Shown in pieces: positions 33,993 to 44,249 of a stretch of 64,000 nt of DNA. Positions within the stretch are counted from its first letter, which is position 1, and each line of letters starts with the position of its first letter. Origin of the DNA: Thalassospiraceae bacterium LMO-SO8. Lineage in GTDB: Bacteria; Pseudomonadota; Alphaproteobacteria; Rhodospirillales; Casp-alpha2. The notes beneath the pieces were generated by a model. That model saw only the letters and a list, made by a program, of their open reading frames with translations, was not told the DNA's origin and did not search any database. Position numbers and translations under genes: made by a program. Location: assembly GCA_031655335.1 (NCBI GenBank), contig CP134226.1:1-64000 (forward strand). Direction: 5' to 3'.

Positions 33993-35144
33993 ATGGTCGA
34001 AAAAAACGAGGAAACGAGCATAGCCGCAATGGCGGACAGCATCACCAGCGCTTCAGGCGCCTCTCCCAGCCCGATTCAGGCCATGGTCGTCGGCGCGTCG
34101 GACGTCGTCGCCGAGCGCGTCAAGGCCGTGCTGCGCCGTCTGGGCGGGGTTGACCTCGTCGCCGAGGCCACGGACGGCGTCGACGCCGTCAGCCACCTGC
34201 GTCGCCGGGCCATCGACGTGATCTTCATCGACATCGGCGACCCCAAGGTCAAACTGACCACGGACCTGTCGCGTCTGCTGAAGGTCGACCGCGACGCCCA
34301 GATCGTGCTGGTCGCCACCCTGACCTTCGCCAACGTGAAGAACGCCATGGCCGGCCTGGTCGCCGGCGCCGCCGAATTCGTCCAGGCACCGGCCCGCCAC
34401 ACGCCGCATATCGCCGAACCCGAGTTCATCCGCCAGATCGCCGATCTGACCCTGGGCCTGGGCCGGGCGCGCCGCGACAAGGGCACCCGCGTGTTCGCCC
34501 CGCCGCCGGCCGCCAACCGCTTCGAACATCCGTCCCCCAAGGAGCTTCGCCAACGCCGCCCCCACATCCCGAAGGCGATCGCCATCGCCAGTTCGACCGG
34601 CGGCCCGCAGGCTCTGTTCACCCTGTTCACGGCCCTGCCCCGTGACGTGACCCAGCCGATCTTCCTGACCCAGCACATGCCGCCCGGGTTCACCACGGCC
34701 CTGGCCGATCACATCACCCGGCGCACGGGATGGCCCTGCGCCGAGGGCAAGGACGGCGAGCAGGTCAAGAACGGGCAGGTCTATATGGCGCCCGGCGGGT
34801 TCCACATGATCCCACGGCAGAGCGGAAACGGCGTGACGATCAAGATCGACGACGGCCCCGAGGAAAGCTTCTGCAAACCCTCGGCGGAACCCATGATGCG
34901 CGGCCTGATCGCCGCCTATGGCGCGGAAAACATCCTGTTCATCGTGCTGACCGGCATGGGATCGGACGGCAAGGCGGGGGCCAAGGCCGTCGCCGACGGC
35001 GGCGGTACCGTCGTCGTCCAGGACAAGGCCAGCAGCGTCGTCTGGGGCATGCCGGGGGCCGTGGCCGCCGCCGGGGACTGCCATGCGGTCCTGCCGCTGG
35101 GCGACCTGCCCAAGTTCATCGCCCAGGCGGCGGCGGGGAAGTAA
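33993..35144 (+). CDS. CheB-type methylesterase with a degenerate receiver domain
   Basis: About 383 residues from the ATG at 33993; an ATG at 34029 is an alternative and neither has a strong ribosome site. Residues 28-150 resemble a receiver domain (AMVVGASDVVAERVKAVLRR, IDVIFIDIGDP), but the acidic pair of normal CheB (VDDS) is replaced by VGASD and the conserved lysine (KP) by QAP, so phosphorylation looks lost. The catalytic domain (190-380) keeps the triad S201 (ASSTGGPQ), H228 (TQHMPPGFT) and D325 (GMGSDG). Normal CheB removes methyl groups from chemoreceptors. No cheR or che cluster is near; the gene is four bases from a phosphotransferase gene and linked to an enolase paralogue. Confidence 0.88.
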   Translation: MVEKNEETSIAAMADSITSASGASPSPIQAMVVGASDVVAERVKAVLRRLGGVDLVAEATDGVDAVSHLRRRAIDVIFIDIGDPKVKLTTDLSRLLKVDRDAQIVLVATLTFANVKNAMAGLVAGAAEFVQAPARHTPHIAEPEFIRQIADLTLGLGRARRDKGTRVFAPPPAANRFEHPSPKELRQRRPHIPKAIAIASSTGGPQALFTLFTALPRDVTQPIFLTQHMPPGFTTALADHITRRTGWPCAEGKDGEQVKNGQVYMAPGGFHMIPRQSGNGVTIKIDDGPEESFCKPSAEPMMRGLIAAYGAENILFIVLTGMGSDGKAGAKAVADGGGTVVVQDKASSVVWGMPGAVAAAGDCHAVLPLGDLPKFIAQAAAGK

Positions 35145-35148
35145 CACC

Positions 35149-36141
35149 ATGAACACCATCGACGCGGACGACTTCCTGACGGGCTTCCTGCGCCAAAACG
35201 GCCTGGCCGCCCCGGACGAAACCCCCGTCTACACGGCCCTGGCCGGCGGCGTGTCGTCGGATATCTGGCGCGCGGACCTGGCGCGCGGGCCGGTCTGCGT
35301 CAAGCGCGCCCTGGCCAAGCTGAAGGTCAAGGCCGACTGGTTCGCGCCGGTGGAACGCAACGCCTTCGAGGTCGCCTGGATGGAAACCGCCAACGGCCTG
35401 CAACCCGGCATCGCCCCCCGGGTGCTGGCCCATGACGCGGATCAGGGCGTGTTCGCCATGGCCTATCTGGACCCGGCCGGCCATCCGACCTGGAAGGACG
35501 AACTGCATGCCGGGCGGGCCGACCCCGCCTTCGCGCGCAGGGTCGGCGAATGCCTGAAACGGGTTCACGCCGGGACGGCGGGCGACGACGGCATGGCGCA
35601 GCGGTTCAGGACCGACGAAACGTTCTATTCCATCCGCCTGGAGCCCTATCTGATCGCCACCGGCCGCGCCCATGCCGACCTCGCCCCCCGCATGGAGGCT
35701 CTGGCCAAGACCACGGCGGCGCACCGCGAGGCCCTGGTCCACGGCGACGTCAGCCCCAAGAACATCCTGGTCGACGGCGCCGATCCCGTGTTCCTCGACG
35801 CCGAATGCGCGTGGTACGGCGACCCGGCCTTCGACCTGGCGTTCTGCCTCAACCATCTGTTGCTGAAATGCCTGTGGACGCCCGCCGCGACGGACGGGTT
35901 CCTCGCCTGCTTCGACGCCCTGGCCGCCGGATACGCCGCCGCGCCCGACGTCGAGGCCCGGGCCGCCGCGCTGCTTCCGGCCTTGTTCCTGGCCCGCGTG
36001 GACGGTAAGTCTCCCGTCGAATACATCACCGCCGACGCCGACCGCGACCGCGTGCGGCGCACGGCCCGACCATTGATCATGTCGCCGCCGCCGACCCTGT
36101 CCGGCGTCCGCCAAGCCTGGGAAAGGGAACTCCGCCGATGA
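35149..36141 (+). CDS. Aminoglycoside/choline-kinase-fold phosphotransferase, unknown substrate
   Basis: About 330 residues from the ATG with GGGGAAG upstream. It has the APH-fold signatures HGDVSPKNILVDG (Brenner motif) and FLDAECAWYGDPAFDLAF (metal-binding D), a nucleotide-binding lysine (VCVKRAL) and the hinge-like AMAYLDPAGHPTWKDEL. Family members phosphorylate hydroxyl groups of aminoglycosides, choline, ethanolamine, homoserine, methylthioribose or sugars; nothing here points to drug resistance. It starts four bases after the CheB-like gene and its stop overlaps the start of the enolase paralogue (ATGA), so a kinase-then-lyase sequence on one metabolite is a reasonable guess. Confidence 0.88.
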   Translation: MNTIDADDFLTGFLRQNGLAAPDETPVYTALAGGVSSDIWRADLARGPVCVKRALAKLKVKADWFAPVERNAFEVAWMETANGLQPGIAPRVLAHDADQGVFAMAYLDPAGHPTWKDELHAGRADPAFARRVGECLKRVHAGTAGDDGMAQRFRTDETFYSIRLEPYLIATGRAHADLAPRMEALAKTTAAHREALVHGDVSPKNILVDGADPVFLDAECAWYGDPAFDLAFCLNHLLLKCLWTPAATDGFLACFDALAAGYAAAPDVEARAAALLPALFLARVDGKSPVEYITADADRDRVRRTARPLIMSPPPTLSGVRQAWERELRR

Positions 36142-37445
36142 CGGCCTCCTCCGCCACCGCCACCACCATCACCGCCGTCAAGGCCCGCCGCGTCTGGGAT
36201 TCCCGGGGCCGCCCGACGGTCGAGGCCGACGTGACCCTGGCCGGCGGCGCGCTCGGCCGGGCCATCGCACCGGCGGGGGCGTCGCGCGGCAGCAATGAGG
36301 CCATCGACCTGCGTGACGGCGGTCCCCGGTTCGGCGGCTGGGACGTGACCGAGGCCCTGCGTCAGACCAACGGCGCCATCGCCCAGGCAATCGTCGGCAT
36401 GGATGCCGGCGACCAGGCCGCCGTGGACCAGGCCCTGATCGCCCTGGACGGCACACCCAACAAGGCCAACCTGGGCGGCAACGCGACCATCGCCGTGTCC
36501 ATGGCGGTGCTGCACGCCGCCGCCGCACAGGCAGGGCAGCCCCTGTGGAAATACCTATGGGACCGGGGCGGTCATTCCGGCACGCCGGTTCTGCCCCTGC
36601 CGGAAATCCAGATTTTCGGCGGCGGCGCCCATGCCGGGCGGCGCATCGACGTGCAGGATTTCATGGTCATCGCCACCGGGGCGGACGACTACGAACAGGC
36701 CCTGGCCTGGACCGCCGAGGTCTATATCGCCGCCGGCAAGATCATGGCCGAGCGCGGCCTGTTGCAGGGCGTCGCCGACGAGGGCGGCTTCTGGCCCGCC
36801 TTCGACGCCAACGAGGACGCCGCCGAAACCCTGGTCCAGGCCATCGAGAAGGCGGGGTTGAGGCCGGGCGAGCAGGTCTCCATCTCGCTCGACATCGCGG
36901 CGTCGGAATTCGGGAAGAACGGGCGCTATCGCCTGGCCCGCGAGGACCGGGAAATGGACAGCGGCGAACTCGCGGACATGCTGCTCGGCTGGGTCGGCCG
37001 CTATCCCATCGTGTCGGTCGAGGACCCCATGTCCGAGGACGACGCGGACGGCTTCCTGGCCTTCGCCAAGGCCGCGCCCAAGACCCTTCAGATCGTCGGC
37101 GACGACTTCCTGGTGACCAACGCCGGCCGGGTCCAGGCGGCGGCCCGCGACGGGGCGCTCAACTGCGCCCTGATCAAGCCGAACCAGGCCGGCACGGTGA
37201 CGGAAACCAAGGCCGCCTTCGACGCCGCGCGGGATGCCGGAATCGGCGCCATCGTATCCGCCCGCTCGGGCGAGACCGAGGACGTGACCATCGTCCATCT
37301 GGCCGTCGGCTGGGGCGCCAAGCAGTTGAAGGTGGGATCGTTCACCCGTTCGGAACGCATGGTGAAATGGAACGAGGGCCTGCGCGTCGCCGACGCCCTC
37401 GGCTCCGCCGCCCTGCCGCCCCGGTCGGCGTTTCCCTGGGGCTGA
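36138..37445 (+). CDS. Enolase paralogue with altered active site
   Basis: The 435-residue protein aligns with enolase along its length: RRVWDSRGRPTVEADVTL, RAIAPAGASRGSNEA, GGAHA (H165), DEGGF (E215), metal ligands D252, E295 and D322, K347 (KPNQ) and K398. Two positions that are nearly always fixed in enolase differ: the Glu of FQEFM is D174 (VQDFM), and the His of SHRSGETED is A375 (SARSGETED). Enolase interconverts 2-phosphoglycerate and PEP; these changes suggest another phosphorylated 2-hydroxyacid-type substrate or altered activity. The usual enolase neighbours (pyrG, ftsB, pdh) are absent. Start codon overlaps the kinase stop. Confidence 0.85.
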   Translation: MTASSATATTITAVKARRVWDSRGRPTVEADVTLAGGALGRAIAPAGASRGSNEAIDLRDGGPRFGGWDVTEALRQTNGAIAQAIVGMDAGDQAAVDQALIALDGTPNKANLGGNATIAVSMAVLHAAAAQAGQPLWKYLWDRGGHSGTPVLPLPEIQIFGGGAHAGRRIDVQDFMVIATGADDYEQALAWTAEVYIAAGKIMAERGLLQGVADEGGFWPAFDANEDAAETLVQAIEKAGLRPGEQVSISLDIAASEFGKNGRYRLAREDREMDSGELADMLLGWVGRYPIVSVEDPMSEDDADGFLAFAKAAPKTLQIVGDDFLVTNAGRVQAAARDGALNCALIKPNQAGTVTETKAAFDAARDAGIGAIVSARSGETEDVTIVHLAVGWGAKQLKVGSFTRSERMVKWNEGLRVADALGSAALPPRSAFPWG

Positions 37446-37451
37446 GCGGCC

Positions 37452-39401
37452 CTATTCCGCCGAACGGGCCATGCCGCGCAGGCGGTTGACCAGCACGCCC
37501 ATCAGCCGGTGCAGGACCTTGTCGGTCTGTTCCAGGCGTTGCAGGCGGGTCTTGAGCGATTCCTTGGACAGCACGATCAGCACCGAATTGTCGGCGGCGC
37601 GGGCCGAGGCGGCGCGCGGTTGATCGTCGATCAGCGACAGTTCCCCCAGCAATTCCCCCGGGCCGAGCGTGGCCAGGCTCTGCTCGATGGCGCCGCGCCG
37701 GTAGATTTCGATGGCGCCCGAGGAAATCAGGAACGCCTCGGTCCCGGCGTCGCCTTCCTCGAACAGGATCTGACCCTTGACCAGCTTGCGCTGTTCCGGC
37801 CCCTTGCCGCCGCCGTTGGTCGGGGTTGCCGCCGGTGCCGGCGCCGGCGCCGGGGCGGGTTTGGCGGCGGCCGGTGCCGGCTGCGCCGGTTTCTGGGCGC
37901 CGTCGTCCCAACGCTTTTCCTGGGGCGCCGCGCCGTTCGCCGCGGCCGCATTCGCCGGCGCATTGGCGAGGGCCTTGTCCAGGGTCGCGGCGGCCGTGCG
38001 TTTCAGTTCCTCGGGCAGGCCGGCGGCGGCGATCTTTTCCTTCAACACGCCCGCCACCCGTTTGGCCATCGCCGCGTCCTGACCGCCGCCGGTCAGGGCG
38101 TCGATGCCGCTCAGCCCCCGCATGGCCTGGGCCAGATTGCGGACCACGGCGGCCTGCTGCTTGGCGCCCGTATCCGTGGCCGACAGGTCGAGCACGAAGC
38201 CCGCCCGCGACGGCAGGGACGGCAGATAGGCGAGGATGCTGGCGACGGCATCCTCGGCGCTGAGATCCCCGTCCTCGCGGCCCAGGGCCATCTTGGCGCG
38301 CAGGGTCAGGGCCTCGGCCATCTGCGGGCCGCCGAGCAGCCCGGCATAGCCTTCGAGATTGCGGATCAGGGTGACCAGGGCCGTGCGCTCGCCTTCCTTG
38401 CCTTCGCGGGTCATCGGCTTGACCCCGCCGATGCCGCGGGCGACCCGGCCCAGAATGGCGTCCCGCGCGTTCTCCAACTCGTAGGCCGCCATGATCGTGT
38501 TCAGCTCGTTGATGCAGCTGAGCGGATTCTTCACCTCCGGCAGGCGCCCTTGGCACAGCTGAACCAGCATGCGGTGGGCGGATGCCGCGTCGGCGACGCC
38601 GCCCAATAGTTCCGTGATGGCGGCGGTGCCGTCGAGGATTTCCGCCAGCGCCTCGTCGACATAGGCCTGGACGACGACGCCCGCCTGCCCGTCGAGCAGC
38701 CTAGCCAGGGATTCGATCTTGCCGCTCCAATCGCCCTGCTCGCCCATATAGGCGGCGAGGCCGGCCAGAATCAGCATGTGGCGGTCTTCGGCCGGGGCCT
38801 CGGCGTTGACCTTGTCGATCAGGGCCTGCAACCCGCCCGCCTGGAGAGCCTCGTTCAGGTCCTCGCGCCGCATCATCTTCTGCGCGTTGGCCATGAGCTG
38901 GTTGTACAGGCGTTCCAGCTTGTTCTGACGGTCGATGGGCTTTTCGCCGCTATCCTTGTCGATCTGCAAAGTGGCCAGACGCGACAGGGCGCCGATGTAG
39001 AGCTTGTCGTCGCGCTCCAGCATCTTCAGGCGGCCGAAATCGAAGGCCAGTTCCATGGCCGTCATGCCGACGTCGTCCAGGTACTGGCGCAACAGACGCC
39101 CGATCGTGCGGCGGGCCTCCAGCTGATAGCAATCGGCCAGGGTCTCGCAAACCGGCGAGGAATCGATGGGCACGACGGTCAGGCCCTTGTCCGTGACCTC
39201 GGCCCGTTCGTTGAAGATGATTTCGTCGCCCTTGCGGTCGCTTTCGGCGATCACCTTGACGCCTGAATATTTATGGGAATCCAACAGCGCCTGCGCCTGC
39301 TGAATGGCCTGCGATTTTACGTTATGGGATGCGAAAAAAGTCCACTTACCGTCGGATTCGGTCTGGACCTCGTAGGTTTTCCCCGCAAGGTTCGTTTCCA
39401 T
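37452..39401 (-). CDS. Large protein with a C-terminal cyclic-nucleotide-binding domain
   Basis: About 649 residues from the ATG preceded by GGGGA (a start 19 residues earlier is unlikely). The C-terminal ~115 residues form a cNMP-binding domain (LVKGQILFEEGDAGTEAFLISSGAIEIYRRG, LATLGPGELLGELSLIDDQPRAASARA), with the phosphate-cassette GELLGELSLIDDQPRAAS. Before it lies a proline/alanine-rich linker (PAPAAAKPAPAPAP) and about 480 residues of mostly helical sequence that I cannot assign, with N-terminal YEVQTESDGKWTFFASHNVKSQAIQQAQALLDS resembling a small conserved start region. No kinase, helix-turn-helix or channel motif is visible. Convergent with the enolase paralogue by six bases. Confidence 0.85.
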   Translation of the reverse strand: METNLAGKTYEVQTESDGKWTFFASHNVKSQAIQQAQALLDSHKYSGVKVIAESDRKGDEIIFNERAEVTDKGLTVVPIDSSPVCETLADCYQLEARRTIGRLLRQYLDDVGMTAMELAFDFGRLKMLERDDKLYIGALSRLATLQIDKDSGEKPIDRQNKLERLYNQLMANAQKMMRREDLNEALQAGGLQALIDKVNAEAPAEDRHMLILAGLAAYMGEQGDWSGKIESLARLLDGQAGVVVQAYVDEALAEILDGTAAITELLGGVADAASAHRMLVQLCQGRLPEVKNPLSCINELNTIMAAYELENARDAILGRVARGIGGVKPMTREGKEGERTALVTLIRNLEGYAGLLGGPQMAEALTLRAKMALGREDGDLSAEDAVASILAYLPSLPSRAGFVLDLSATDTGAKQQAAVVRNLAQAMRGLSGIDALTGGGQDAAMAKRVAGVLKEKIAAAGLPEELKRTAAATLDKALANAPANAAAANGAAPQEKRWDDGAQKPAQPAPAAAKPAPAPAPAPAATPTNGGGKGPEQRKLVKGQILFEEGDAGTEAFLISSGAIEIYRRGAIEQSLATLGPGELLGELSLIDDQPRAASARAADNSVLIVLSKESLKTRLQRLEQTDKVLHRLMGVLVNRLRGMARSAE

Positions 39402-39760
39402 GTTGGTTGAGTCCCCAAGTGCCGATTTGCACGTCGTCCCCTGTAGACGACGCCACACTCCAATCGCACCCCCTCAAAGCGTGCCGCCGGTTGTTCCAAC
39501 GAGCGAGAATTATCGATAAGATGCCGTGTATGATTATTAGGCGCAAGCCCCTGGACAAATTCGGTATAAAAGGCTGCCATACGGGCGCGGCGTAAAATTT
39601 TCGCGGAGGATTAATCTGCGCGCACTATCGTGAAACGGGAACTCCTTCTAATTTCTAGACCTTTTTTTGCTCACGCTTACGATTGTAAAAGAATATACGG
39701 GTGGTGTTCCGCAAGGAATCCAGTGCATTAAAAGCAAAACCTTCGGGGGAGGGGGTCAGC
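39402..39760. other. 359-base divergent intergenic region
   Basis: It separates the leftward cNMP-domain gene from the rightward MarR-like gene and should hold both promoters. Besides the inverted repeat at 39432-39452, the part at 39600-39710 is AT-richer and includes ACCTTTTTTTGC and AAGAATATACGG, a possible -10 for the MarR-like gene. No gene or mobile element is seen. Confidence 0.6.
39432..39452. repeat. Inverted repeat in the leader of the cNMP-domain gene
   Basis: CGTCGTC-ccctgta-GACGACG is a perfect 7+7+7 inverted repeat about 31 bases upstream of the cNMP-domain gene's ATG; it can form a leader hairpin or a regulator site. Confidence 0.5.
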
Positions 39761-40144
39761 ATGGTGAACGCTCGAACTCAAGCAAGAGCGGAGTATACGA
39801 AATACCTCGAAAAGGTCCGCTGGGTGCAAAAATCCCGCGCGACCCAGAACGCCCTGTATCGTAATGCGGGGACCCAGAACCTGACCTGGGATGTTCTCTT
39901 CCTGATCGCCGAGGCCCAGTACGCCGGACAGAACCTCAACGTTTCCGACATCTGCGTGTCCGTGACGGCGTCCAAATCGACGACCCTGAAGCTGATCGCG
40001 CAATTGGCCACGGACAACGTGATCGACAAGCGGCAGAAGGAAAACGATTCCCGCACGCAGTTGGTGACCCTGAACGACGGCTTCCGCAAGAAGCTCGAAT
40101 ACTATTTGGACAATCTGACCGAGACCTATCCCTCGCTCAATTGA
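39761..40144 (+). CDS. MarR-like winged-helix DNA-binding protein, copy 1
   Basis: The 127-residue protein starts at the ATG after GGGGGAGGGGG. Residues 40-115 fit a winged helix: NLTWDVLFLIAEAQYAGQNLNVSDICVSVTASKSTTLKLIAQLATDNVIDKRQKENDSRTQLVTLNDGF, with recognition helix TASKSTTLKLIAQL and wing DSRTQLVTL. It matches the second MarR-like protein at 43.9 kb in the same places (D.R.(K/Q)L(L/V)TL..(D/G).RK(K/R)), so the two are paralogues. The family regulates transcription in response to small molecules or stress; target unknown. It is followed by the SMR exporter gene after 152 bases. Confidence 0.82.
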   Translation: MVNARTQARAEYTKYLEKVRWVQKSRATQNALYRNAGTQNLTWDVLFLIAEAQYAGQNLNVSDICVSVTASKSTTLKLIAQLATDNVIDKRQKENDSRTQLVTLNDGFRKKLEYYLDNLTETYPSLN

Positions 40145-43856: not shown

Positions 43857-44249
43857 ATGACGCTGACCTTCACCAACGACCAGCACCGCGCCTATATGGA
43901 GTTCAACGACACCCTTGGCCGCGAATGGGTTCAGGTGTTCGAGGGCGACACGGATTTCTACGATGCCGCCTATTGGGACCTGTTCAACAACATGTGGCGC
44001 GCCCGCACGCCCGTGCGCAAGACGGACGCGCTCAAGTTCATGACCAGCATCAAAAGCGCCCATACGGCGGGCAAATACCTGGACGTCGCCCTGAAAAAGG
44101 GCCTTCTGATCGAACAGGACAATCCCAAGGACGCGCGCTCCAAGCTGCTGACCCTGTCGGGCGACCTGCGCAAGCGCATGGATAGGTTCTATGACTGTTC
44201 GATCAGCGAAATGTACAAGACCTGCAAGCTGATCGACGGCATGAAGTGA
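43857..44249 (+). CDS. MarR-like winged-helix DNA-binding protein, copy 2
   Basis: The 130-residue protein contains WDLFNNMWRARTPVRKTDALKFMTSIKSAHTAGKYLDVALKKGLLIEQDNPKDARSKLLTLSGDLRKRMDRFYD, a winged helix with wing DARSKLLTLSGDLRKRM. It is a paralogue of copy 1, differing most in the N-terminal dimerisation half. There is no strong ribosome site (GGGGAAAACAGACA). It is divergent from the lipoprotein gene and its stop overlaps the start of a CPBP protease gene (TGATG), so it may control both. Role and ligand unknown. Confidence 0.8.
   Translation: MTLTFTNDQHRAYMEFNDTLGREWVQVFEGDTDFYDAAYWDLFNNMWRARTPVRKTDALKFMTSIKSAHTAGKYLDVALKKGLLIEQDNPKDARSKLLTLSGDLRKRMDRFYDCSISEMYKTCKLIDGMK

Follow-up and report, generated by a model that had tools for sequence, protein, structure and literature searches.

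The window, by which we mean the whole 64,000-nucleotide stretch analysed, carries on its forward strand three genes running head to tail, which encode in order a CheB-like protein, a kinase and a paralogue of enolase (Table 1). The CheB-like gene ends in a TAA stop codon at 35142-35144 and is separated from the kinase gene by 4 bases (35145-35148), and the kinase and enolase genes overlap, as the initial annotation had described. The ATGA overlap suggests that the kinase and the enolase are translationally coupled.

Table 1. Features of the kinase-enolase locus in the window.
Feature	Position	Strand	Basis or remark
CheB-type methylesterase, degenerate receiver	33993..35144	+	Pfam; local neighbour, judged to lie outside the module
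APH/methylthioribose-kinase-fold small-molecule kinase, 330 aa	35149..36141	+	First gene of the conserved pair
Enolase paralogue, 435 aa	36138..37445	+	Enolase_N/Enolase_C; second gene of the conserved pair
ATGA stop/start overlap, kinase/enolase	36138..36141	+	Direct reading of the sequence

Like the CheB of chemotaxis, the first protein has a methylesterase domain (Pfam CheB_methylest, 180.3 bits), and the serine, histidine and aspartate that we take to be its active-site residues are invariant in all 8 aligned homologues, such that the active site of this domain appears intact. Unlike chemotaxis CheB its receiver is degenerate, with a Response_reg score of 29.0 bits falling below the cut-off of 30.2. 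Assuming the usual roles for the receiver residues, Asp80 is invariant in the 8 homologues, while the positions of the acidic pair are occupied by Gly-Ala or Gly-Thr in the window and in loci L003-L007, with one acidic residue retained in L008 and L015, and the lysine is absent from its usual position in all 8. The description of this protein as a CheB without an intact receiver is therefore borne out. A further CheB domain is found elsewhere in the genome, at 2696201-2696731.

The kinase contains an APH domain (Pfam, 64.9 bits), the only other match being a weak one to TCAD9 (E up to 0.001). The AlphaFold model has a pLDDT of 95.5 and the nearest folds in the PDB are methylthioribose kinases, with a TM-score of 0.82 to 2pyw, in keeping with the APH-fold phosphotransferase first proposed. 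Although this is the closest fold, the protein scores only 57.7 bits against the methylthioribose kinase model TIGR01767, for which the cut-off is 275, is 17% identical to 2pyw and has different gene partners. In an alignment of 41 sequences selected from the 89 loci with a kinase, the HGD..N motif and a C-terminal RxxGKSPxxY motif are invariant throughout, with His198, Gly199, Asp200, Asn205, Asp217 and Glu219 making up HGD(x)4N and a second acidic motif. No family-model match was obtained to the glycerate kinases of class I (PF02595) or class II (MOFRL, PF05161). We propose that the protein may be a 2-kinase of glycerate or of a close analogue.

The third protein resembles glycolytic enolase (EC 4.2.1.11) in its N- and C-terminal domains (Enolase_N, 159.3 bits; Enolase_C, 263.6 bits), its fold (pLDDT 92.5; TM-score 0.95 to E. 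coli enolase, 6bfz) and its score of 443.9 bits against TIGR01060, above the cut-off of 300. It is 46% identical to the other, canonical enolase of the same genome, so that the divergent enolase of the initial annotation is confirmed and is not the only enolase of the genome; the ground for refutation that a sole glycolytic enolase would have given does not apply. The catalytic residues are kept: Ser39, Glu211, Asp246, Glu295, Asp320, Lys345, Arg374, Ser375 and Lys396 (yeast numbering) are all retained, where we take Asp246, Glu295 and Asp320 to be the metal ligands, Lys345 the base and Glu211 the acid. Glu168, on the other hand, is replaced with aspartate (Asp174) and His373 with alanine (Ala375), both presumably beside the part of the active site that faces the leaving group. 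This combination is found in 91 of the 116 rows of an alignment built from the best tblastn piece per locus only, with the duplicates L001, L002 and L094-L105 omitted; 21 rows have the glutamate and histidine and 4 have neither combination. Fourteen further positions set the 91-row D/A group apart from the canonical rows, the split having been made on these very two columns, and the group forms a separate branch in the tree. Such strict retention of the two changes suggests an intermediate other than simply D-2-phosphoglycerate, which the glycolytic enzyme already converts. Judged by sequence, the D/A group is hidden under the name phosphopyruvate hydratase, and we found no tested reaction for any enzyme belonging to it.

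By comparing 90 homologous loci we found a kinase match no more than 300 bases upstream of the enolase, on the same strand, in 84; a further 5 have it at a distance of 2.7-6.4 kb from the start of the enolase, and at one locus (L082) no kinase was found. The order of the pair is conserved across at least six phyla. Within the order to which the organism belongs, both genes occur in the identical 23 of 120 genomes, an all-or-none co-occurrence, and they are adjacent in 22 of these 23; in G058 the two are split between contigs, with the kinase match stopping 165 bases short of one contig end and the enolase match reaching the very end of the other contig, a pattern expected from a break in the assembly. 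The 20 plus 11 stretches taken from these genomes do not constitute independent evidence, since they overlap the homologous loci (overlapping pairs, as judged from the lengths of the contigs, being G018/L012, G046/L014, G104/L015, G116/L011, G084/L004 and G091/L006). For L159 (G162) the stretch taken contains no enolase. In Vibrio halioticoli (L066) the kinase and enolase are fused naturally into a single protein of 753 aa, encoded directly after a GntP-type permease gene. The kinase is also found fused to a reductase, as a PanE/ApbA-APH protein of 759 aa (L059); L153 was considered as a second such fusion and rejected, the two parts being in different frames. On these comparisons the pairing is clearly beyond chance, and the kinase and enolase paralogue are a two-gene pair that travels together across many bacterial groups.

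The neighbours of the pair give some indication of its metabolic context. At 43 of the 90 loci it is found with enzymes that could supply glycerate, glyceraldehyde or a 2-keto acid, or consume phosphoenolpyruvate (PEP); the other 47, partly because of short contigs, have none of the listed kinds, and we noticed none near the pair in the window itself. An FAH-type hydrolase is near the pair at 27 loci, a 2-hydroxyacid dehydrogenase (at least 48% identity) at 10, an aldehyde dehydrogenase (at least 51% identity) at 8, PEP carboxylase, an IlvD/EDD-type dehydratase and a fucose-isomerase-like protein at 4 each, ketohexokinase at 3 and PanE at 2. The dehydratase always accompanies FAH (L019, L040, L046 and L069, with L019 and L069 checked by Pfam). 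The aldehyde dehydrogenases score 241-287 bits against the D-glyceraldehyde dehydrogenase model NF040792 (cut-off 760), below their scores to other families, and so do not single out glyceraldehyde. Two fucose-isomerase-like proteins match only sulfoquinovose isomerase, and with low scores (98 and 159 bits; cut-off 700). Such matches would suggest a hexose altered at C6 and hence a 3-substituted acid. In L069 and L046 an epimerase-SDR-lactonase-IlvD set is similar to that of sulfoquinovose breakdown. Sulfolactate was thus considered and may be one of the close analogues, though the best scores of the two IlvD-type proteins are to models of sugar-acid and dihydroxy-acid dehydratases, and the neighbourhoods viewed carry no annotated sulfite-handling gene, nor was one found among ten further neighbours scanned, both of which count against it. 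Many alphaproteobacterial loci have FAH and SDR genes behind the pair, an arrangement like Route III, in which a 4-dehydrogenase and an FAH hydrolase yield pyruvate and lactate or glycolate (PMC6336799). By analogy a hexonate would give pyruvate and glycerate, although the routes set out in the part of that paper describing them have lactate or glycolate as their end products, and a kinase-enolase pair is not mentioned there. Neither a 4-dehydrogenase nor an FAH hydrolase was noticed by eye among the window's open reading frames at 28-44 kb, most of which lie outside the family-library scan.

From the shared order, the co-occurrence, the fusion and the residue changes we infer a reaction, a substrate and a stereochemistry for the pair. 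In the first step the APH-fold kinase would use ATP to phosphorylate a 2,3-dihydroxy acid of three carbons at its 2-hydroxyl, the likeliest substrate being one or other enantiomer of glycerate or a close 3-substituted analogue; in the second the paralogue would remove the C2 proton and expel the group on C3, giving PEP. We put the probability of this two-step route to PEP, with glycerate or a near analogue phosphorylated at its 2-hydroxyl and then acted on by the paralogue, at about 0.5. The phosphorylation and beta-elimination of the initial annotation gain support, as a predicted chemistry, from the order in at least six phyla, the co-occurrence and the one fusion. The ester hydrolysis that was to precede them is not needed. 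The net reaction would be that of class II (MOFRL) glycerate 2-kinase and enolase, which take glycerate to PEP in the non-phosphorylative Entner-Doudoroff branch (PMC2063504), but here the kinase has an APH domain and matches neither of the class I and II families, and the enolase residues are changed. Replacement of the MOFRL kinase by the APH kinase was considered and rejected, as the former is kept in 22 of the 23 pair-bearing genomes, compared with 110 of the 120 overall. A further enolase match is also present in 22 of the 23, two of them only partial, so plain use of D-glycerate would be redundant. A more tentative proposal is that the paralogue carries out a new enolase reaction on an intermediate that is no substrate of the glycolytic enzyme, for instance L-2-phosphoglycerate or a 3-substituted 2-phospholactate, which a hydroxyacid 2-kinase of a new kind would supply. 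The stereochemical cues appear to conflict: D-type 2-hydroxyacid dehydrogenases and PanE reductases make R-hydroxy acids, and would indicate the D (R) form, while the residue signature points away from ordinary D-2-phosphoglycerate.

The pair might instead be plainly redundant, a D-glycerate 2-kinase and an ordinary phosphopyruvate hydratase under local control, with the residue changes neutral or tuning the kinetics. The 2-hydroxyacid dehydrogenases and PanE, close to or fused with the kinase, fit this, as does the PEP carboxylase beside the pair in Rhizobiaceae, which we liken to the lower half of the serine cycle. We consider it rather unlikely, as no mixed residue patterns occur across the at least six phyla, and neither the need for a second enolase nor its fusion to the kinase would be explained. 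That the pair carries out a phosphorylative dehydration of a longer sugar acid, in which the kinase makes a 2-phospho-aldonate from which a paralogue with room at C3 would make a 2-phosphoenol-3-deoxy acid to feed the dehydrogenase and FAH hydrolase, seems more doubtful still. The changes are located at what we take to be the C3-group site, and several Roseobacter-type loci have FAH and SDR genes 3' of the enolase but lack an annotated dehydratase in the stretch concerned. However, four loci have an IlvD/EDD-type dehydratase in the same cluster, L061 and L062 have an MR_MLE-type protein 4.5-6.7 kb away, the fused pair after the permease has no sugar-acid enzyme among its scanned neighbours, and the carboxylase of Rhizobiaceae points to PEP.

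Loss of catalysis, leaving the paralogue to bind or regulate the kinase, would account for the change of two residues at which the 21 canonical rows show no variation. It is very improbable given that the proposed base, acid, metal ligands and phosphate-binding residues are kept, Lys345 being replaced (with asparagine) in one row only, L016. We give next to no credence to a three-step pathway with CheB as the esterase, or to a unit under CheB control. The short gap in the window would favour it, and CheB is directly 5' of the kinase in L003-L007, as it is in G077, G084 and G091, genomes from the same genus that in some cases are the same strains; these are, however, the only such cases. CheB is present at 7 of the 90 loci and was not found at 83, and in the remaining two, L008 and L015, the midpoints of CheB and the enolase are 4.4-4.5 kb apart and a gene on the opposite strand separates CheB from the kinase. 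In L008 this gene is a CitMHS/TrkA_C transporter; a chemoreceptor was considered and rejected, there being no real match to the window's presumed chemoreceptor, itself identified by eye. By gene order, CheB is outside the module, its adjacency to the pair being confined to the genus of the window and the closest relatives, a restriction that the initial annotation had itself named as grounds for giving up the trio. As a general system the trio is already refuted by these comparisons, and of the proposed coupling it is the kinase-enolase link that stands.

We found no description of the pair or its chemistry in the open-access full-text literature. Few metabolic enzymes are regarded as being as invariant as enolase, and a protein scoring above the family cut-off is named phosphopyruvate hydratase, as the paralogue would be. 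If a group separable by sequence has two altered active-site residues and a conserved kinase partner of its own, some of the 'second enolases' in annotations would have a different function and, if the paralogue does carry out a new reaction, a two-enzyme route into PEP would have been annotated as ordinary glycolysis. The pair would also offer a simple two-gene assay target for a missing step in the breakdown of sugars, sugar acids and possibly aromatic compounds.

The coordinates bear out the head-to-tail arrangement described in the initial annotation, in which a CheB-type gene, a kinase and an enolase follow one another with a gap of four bases and then an ATGA overlap, and Pfam and NCBIfam concur in the naming of all three. 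The receiver of the CheB is degenerate, in line with the claim that it is not intact, and a second CheB domain is present in the genome. A canonical enolase with 46% identity to the paralogue is encoded elsewhere, so that the paralogue is not the sole enolase of the genome. At 10 loci the pair is followed by an opposite-strand ORF (cluster 7); from their position and size these ORFs are taken to be homologues of the 668-residue protein of the window. The two small proteins resemble each other by eye.

Genes in the window around the kinase–enolase pair
Feature	Position	Strand	Basis or remarks
CheB-type gene	33993-35144	+	Pfam/NCBIfam
APH-fold kinase	35149-36141	+	Pfam/NCBIfam
Enolase paralogue	36138-37445	+	Pfam/NCBIfam
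668-aa protein	37452-39458	-	Convergent with enolase gene; cyclic-nucleotide-binding domain, residues 557-640
Small protein	39701-40144	+	Sub-threshold SarA/Rot (26.5 of 27 bits) and MarR (19.6 of 24.6)
Small protein	43857-44249	+	No Pfam match

The kinase and the paralogue travel together. Scanning a species-genome collection for the enolase gave 163 encoding stretches, and a kinase homologue is present in 79 of the best 80. Adding ten plasmid loci to these 80 made a set of 90. In 84 of these the kinase match precedes the enolase on its own strand, no more than 300 bases away; in five (L083, L086, L087, L089 and L090) it is 2.7–6.4 kb from the enolase start and in one, L082, there is no kinase match. 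Pairwise distances for the two proteins correlate at 0.89 over 89 loci, or 0.76 when restricted to pairs more than 30% apart, part of which can be explained by shared ancestry alone. Among 120 genomes of the window's order, the kinase (E up to 1e-20) and the paralogue (E up to 1e-115, set against the best canonical copy at 2e-109) are found in the identical 23, which fall in 13 of 62 genera; phylum-wide the kinase is in 9 of 299 genomes. The locus titles, which can be wrong for MAGs, cover Pseudomonadota, Verrucomicrobiota, Planctomycetota, Acidobacteriota, Bacteroidota and Balneolota, and four of these six phyla include named isolates (Vibrio halioticoli and many Roseobacters, Pelagicoccus mobilis, Aporhodopirellula aestuarii and, on a plasmid, Persicobacter). 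The Aliagarivorans marinus paralogue (L079:8001-9239) has a stop codon inside the matched stretch.

The proposed three-gene unit did not hold up, as CheB is matched at only 7 of the 90 loci. It is immediately 5′ of the kinase in L003-L007, while in L008 and L015 it is more distant with an opposite-strand gene intervening. Elsewhere in the order, where stretches around the pair had flanks of up to about 4 kb, some ended by contig ends, CheB adjoins the pair in three genomes that belong to the window's genus (G077, G084 and G091) and lies 4.5 kb away in G104. On the other side, serC is found at 9 of the 90 loci. Two fusions were seen, each a single case. In V. halioticoli the kinase and paralogue form a single 753-residue frame, directly 3′ of a GntP-type permease gene, and in a betaproteobacterial MAG (L059) a PanE/ApbA reductase and the kinase share a 759-residue frame whose start codon is uncertain. 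A possible PanE–kinase fusion in L153 was ruled out by a frame check.

Glu168 and His373 of yeast enolase, which face the leaving group in the active site, are replaced by Asp and Ala in 91 of 116 aligned rows and kept in 21; since the two groups are defined on these columns, the finding is that there are no mixed rows. Four rows fit neither pattern: two (L123 and L124, 34% and 30% identical) are unaligned at these columns and two (L121 and L122) are a third enolase-like type. At 14 further positions each group is at least 90% uniform and the groups differ, among them W219 for Ala, Q158 and G161 for Asn and V399 for Thr. The proton-transfer, metal and phosphate residues are retained. A maximum-likelihood tree built from 60 selected rows unites 42 of the 43 rows of the paralogue group on a single branch (97/99) and sets 15 canonical rows on a separate one (100/99), with a Sphingobium row (L091) unplaced.

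The third type, from G091 and G084 of the window's genus, shares about 35% identity with the window paralogue and has Asn for His373 and Asp for Glu211; the window genome has no match to it at E up to 1e-20. In the enolase of a Magnetovibrio MAG (L016) Asn replaces yeast Lys345, the proposed base, which the other rows of that alignment keep. One genome of the order, G010, has two canonical-type enolases besides the paralogue.

Annotated records call the kinase a phosphotransferase or aminoglycoside phosphotransferase family protein and the paralogue phosphopyruvate hydratase. Among open-access full texts, no paper listed describes the pair by its title or the start of its abstract. Three classes of glycerate kinase are named in PMC2063504, and 'aminoglycoside' occurs nowhere in its text.

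Since the query proteins were drawn from the same 90 loci, the neighbour counts are descriptive rather than a test: SDR (28), LacI-type regulator (27), FAH hydrolase (27), sugar ABC binding protein (11), close 2-hydroxyacid dehydrogenase (10, from a raw 19 with nine SerA cross-matches at 36–37%), close aldehyde dehydrogenase (8, from a raw 11 with three at 31–34%), extradiol-dioxygenase-like VOC protein (6), PEP carboxylase, IlvD/EDD-type dehydratase, fucose-isomerase-like protein and an aldolase-like protein, so called by eye and without Pfam or NCBIfam match (4 each), MR_MLE-type protein and ketohexokinase (3 each), PanE (2) and methylisocitrate-lyase-type protein (1). At least one enzyme relevant to a route through a glycerate-like acid (FAH, dehydrogenases, PEP carboxylase, IlvD, isomerase, ketohexokinase, aldolase-like, PanE or lyase) is present at 43 loci and none at 47. 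A further 31 stretches, from strains partly overlapping the 90 loci, have a dehydrogenase in 8, FAH in 4, lyase in 2 and PanE in 1, leaving out a weak 26% match. The clearest clusters are on annotated plasmids, with LacI, kinase, enolase, FAH, SDR and sugar ABC transporter. Those of Rhizobium have LacI, ABC, cupin, enolase, VOC and alcohol dehydrogenase genes on one strand, followed on the opposite strand by genes for the kinase, a 2-hydroxyacid dehydrogenase and PEP carboxylase. On a Cupriavidus taiwanensis plasmid (L125) a canonical-type enolase gene is directly 3′ of one for PEP carboxylase.

Names confirmed with Pfam are those of the IlvD/EDD proteins in L019 and L069, the lactonases in L064 and L069, the L064 aldehyde dehydrogenase, the L069 aldose epimerase and the L063 ketohexokinase. 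The aldehyde dehydrogenases fall below the cut-off of all 25 listed NCBIfam models, including glyceraldehyde dehydrogenase, and the fucose-isomerase-like proteins upstream of the pair (L063:103-1617 and L092:974-2473) match only sulfoquinovose isomerase, far under its cut-off. A C6-altered hexose would fit this resemblance; L sugars would fit the FAH hydrolase of L084, whose closest match is the L-rhamnonate-route enzyme, at 342 bits against a cut-off of 500.

Retention of a second, residue-changed enolase is puzzling because, of the order's 23 pair-bearing genomes, 22 encode a MOFRL (class II) glycerate kinase and 22 show a further enolase match (two partial; none in G039). Either the intermediate is other than D-2-phosphoglycerate or the second set is a duplicate under local control; the D form is favoured by the R-specific reductases that adjoin the kinase. 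The varied surroundings could each end in glycerate, glyceraldehyde, hydroxypyruvate or a C3-altered analogue, through a hexonate split by the FAH hydrolase on analogy with the Route III sugar-acid pathway, a ketohexose phosphate cleaved and passed to an aldehyde dehydrogenase, or reduction of a 2-keto acid. The pair, acting as a 2-kinase and an enolase, would then convert the resulting acid into PEP, a substrate that PEP carboxylase would carry further.
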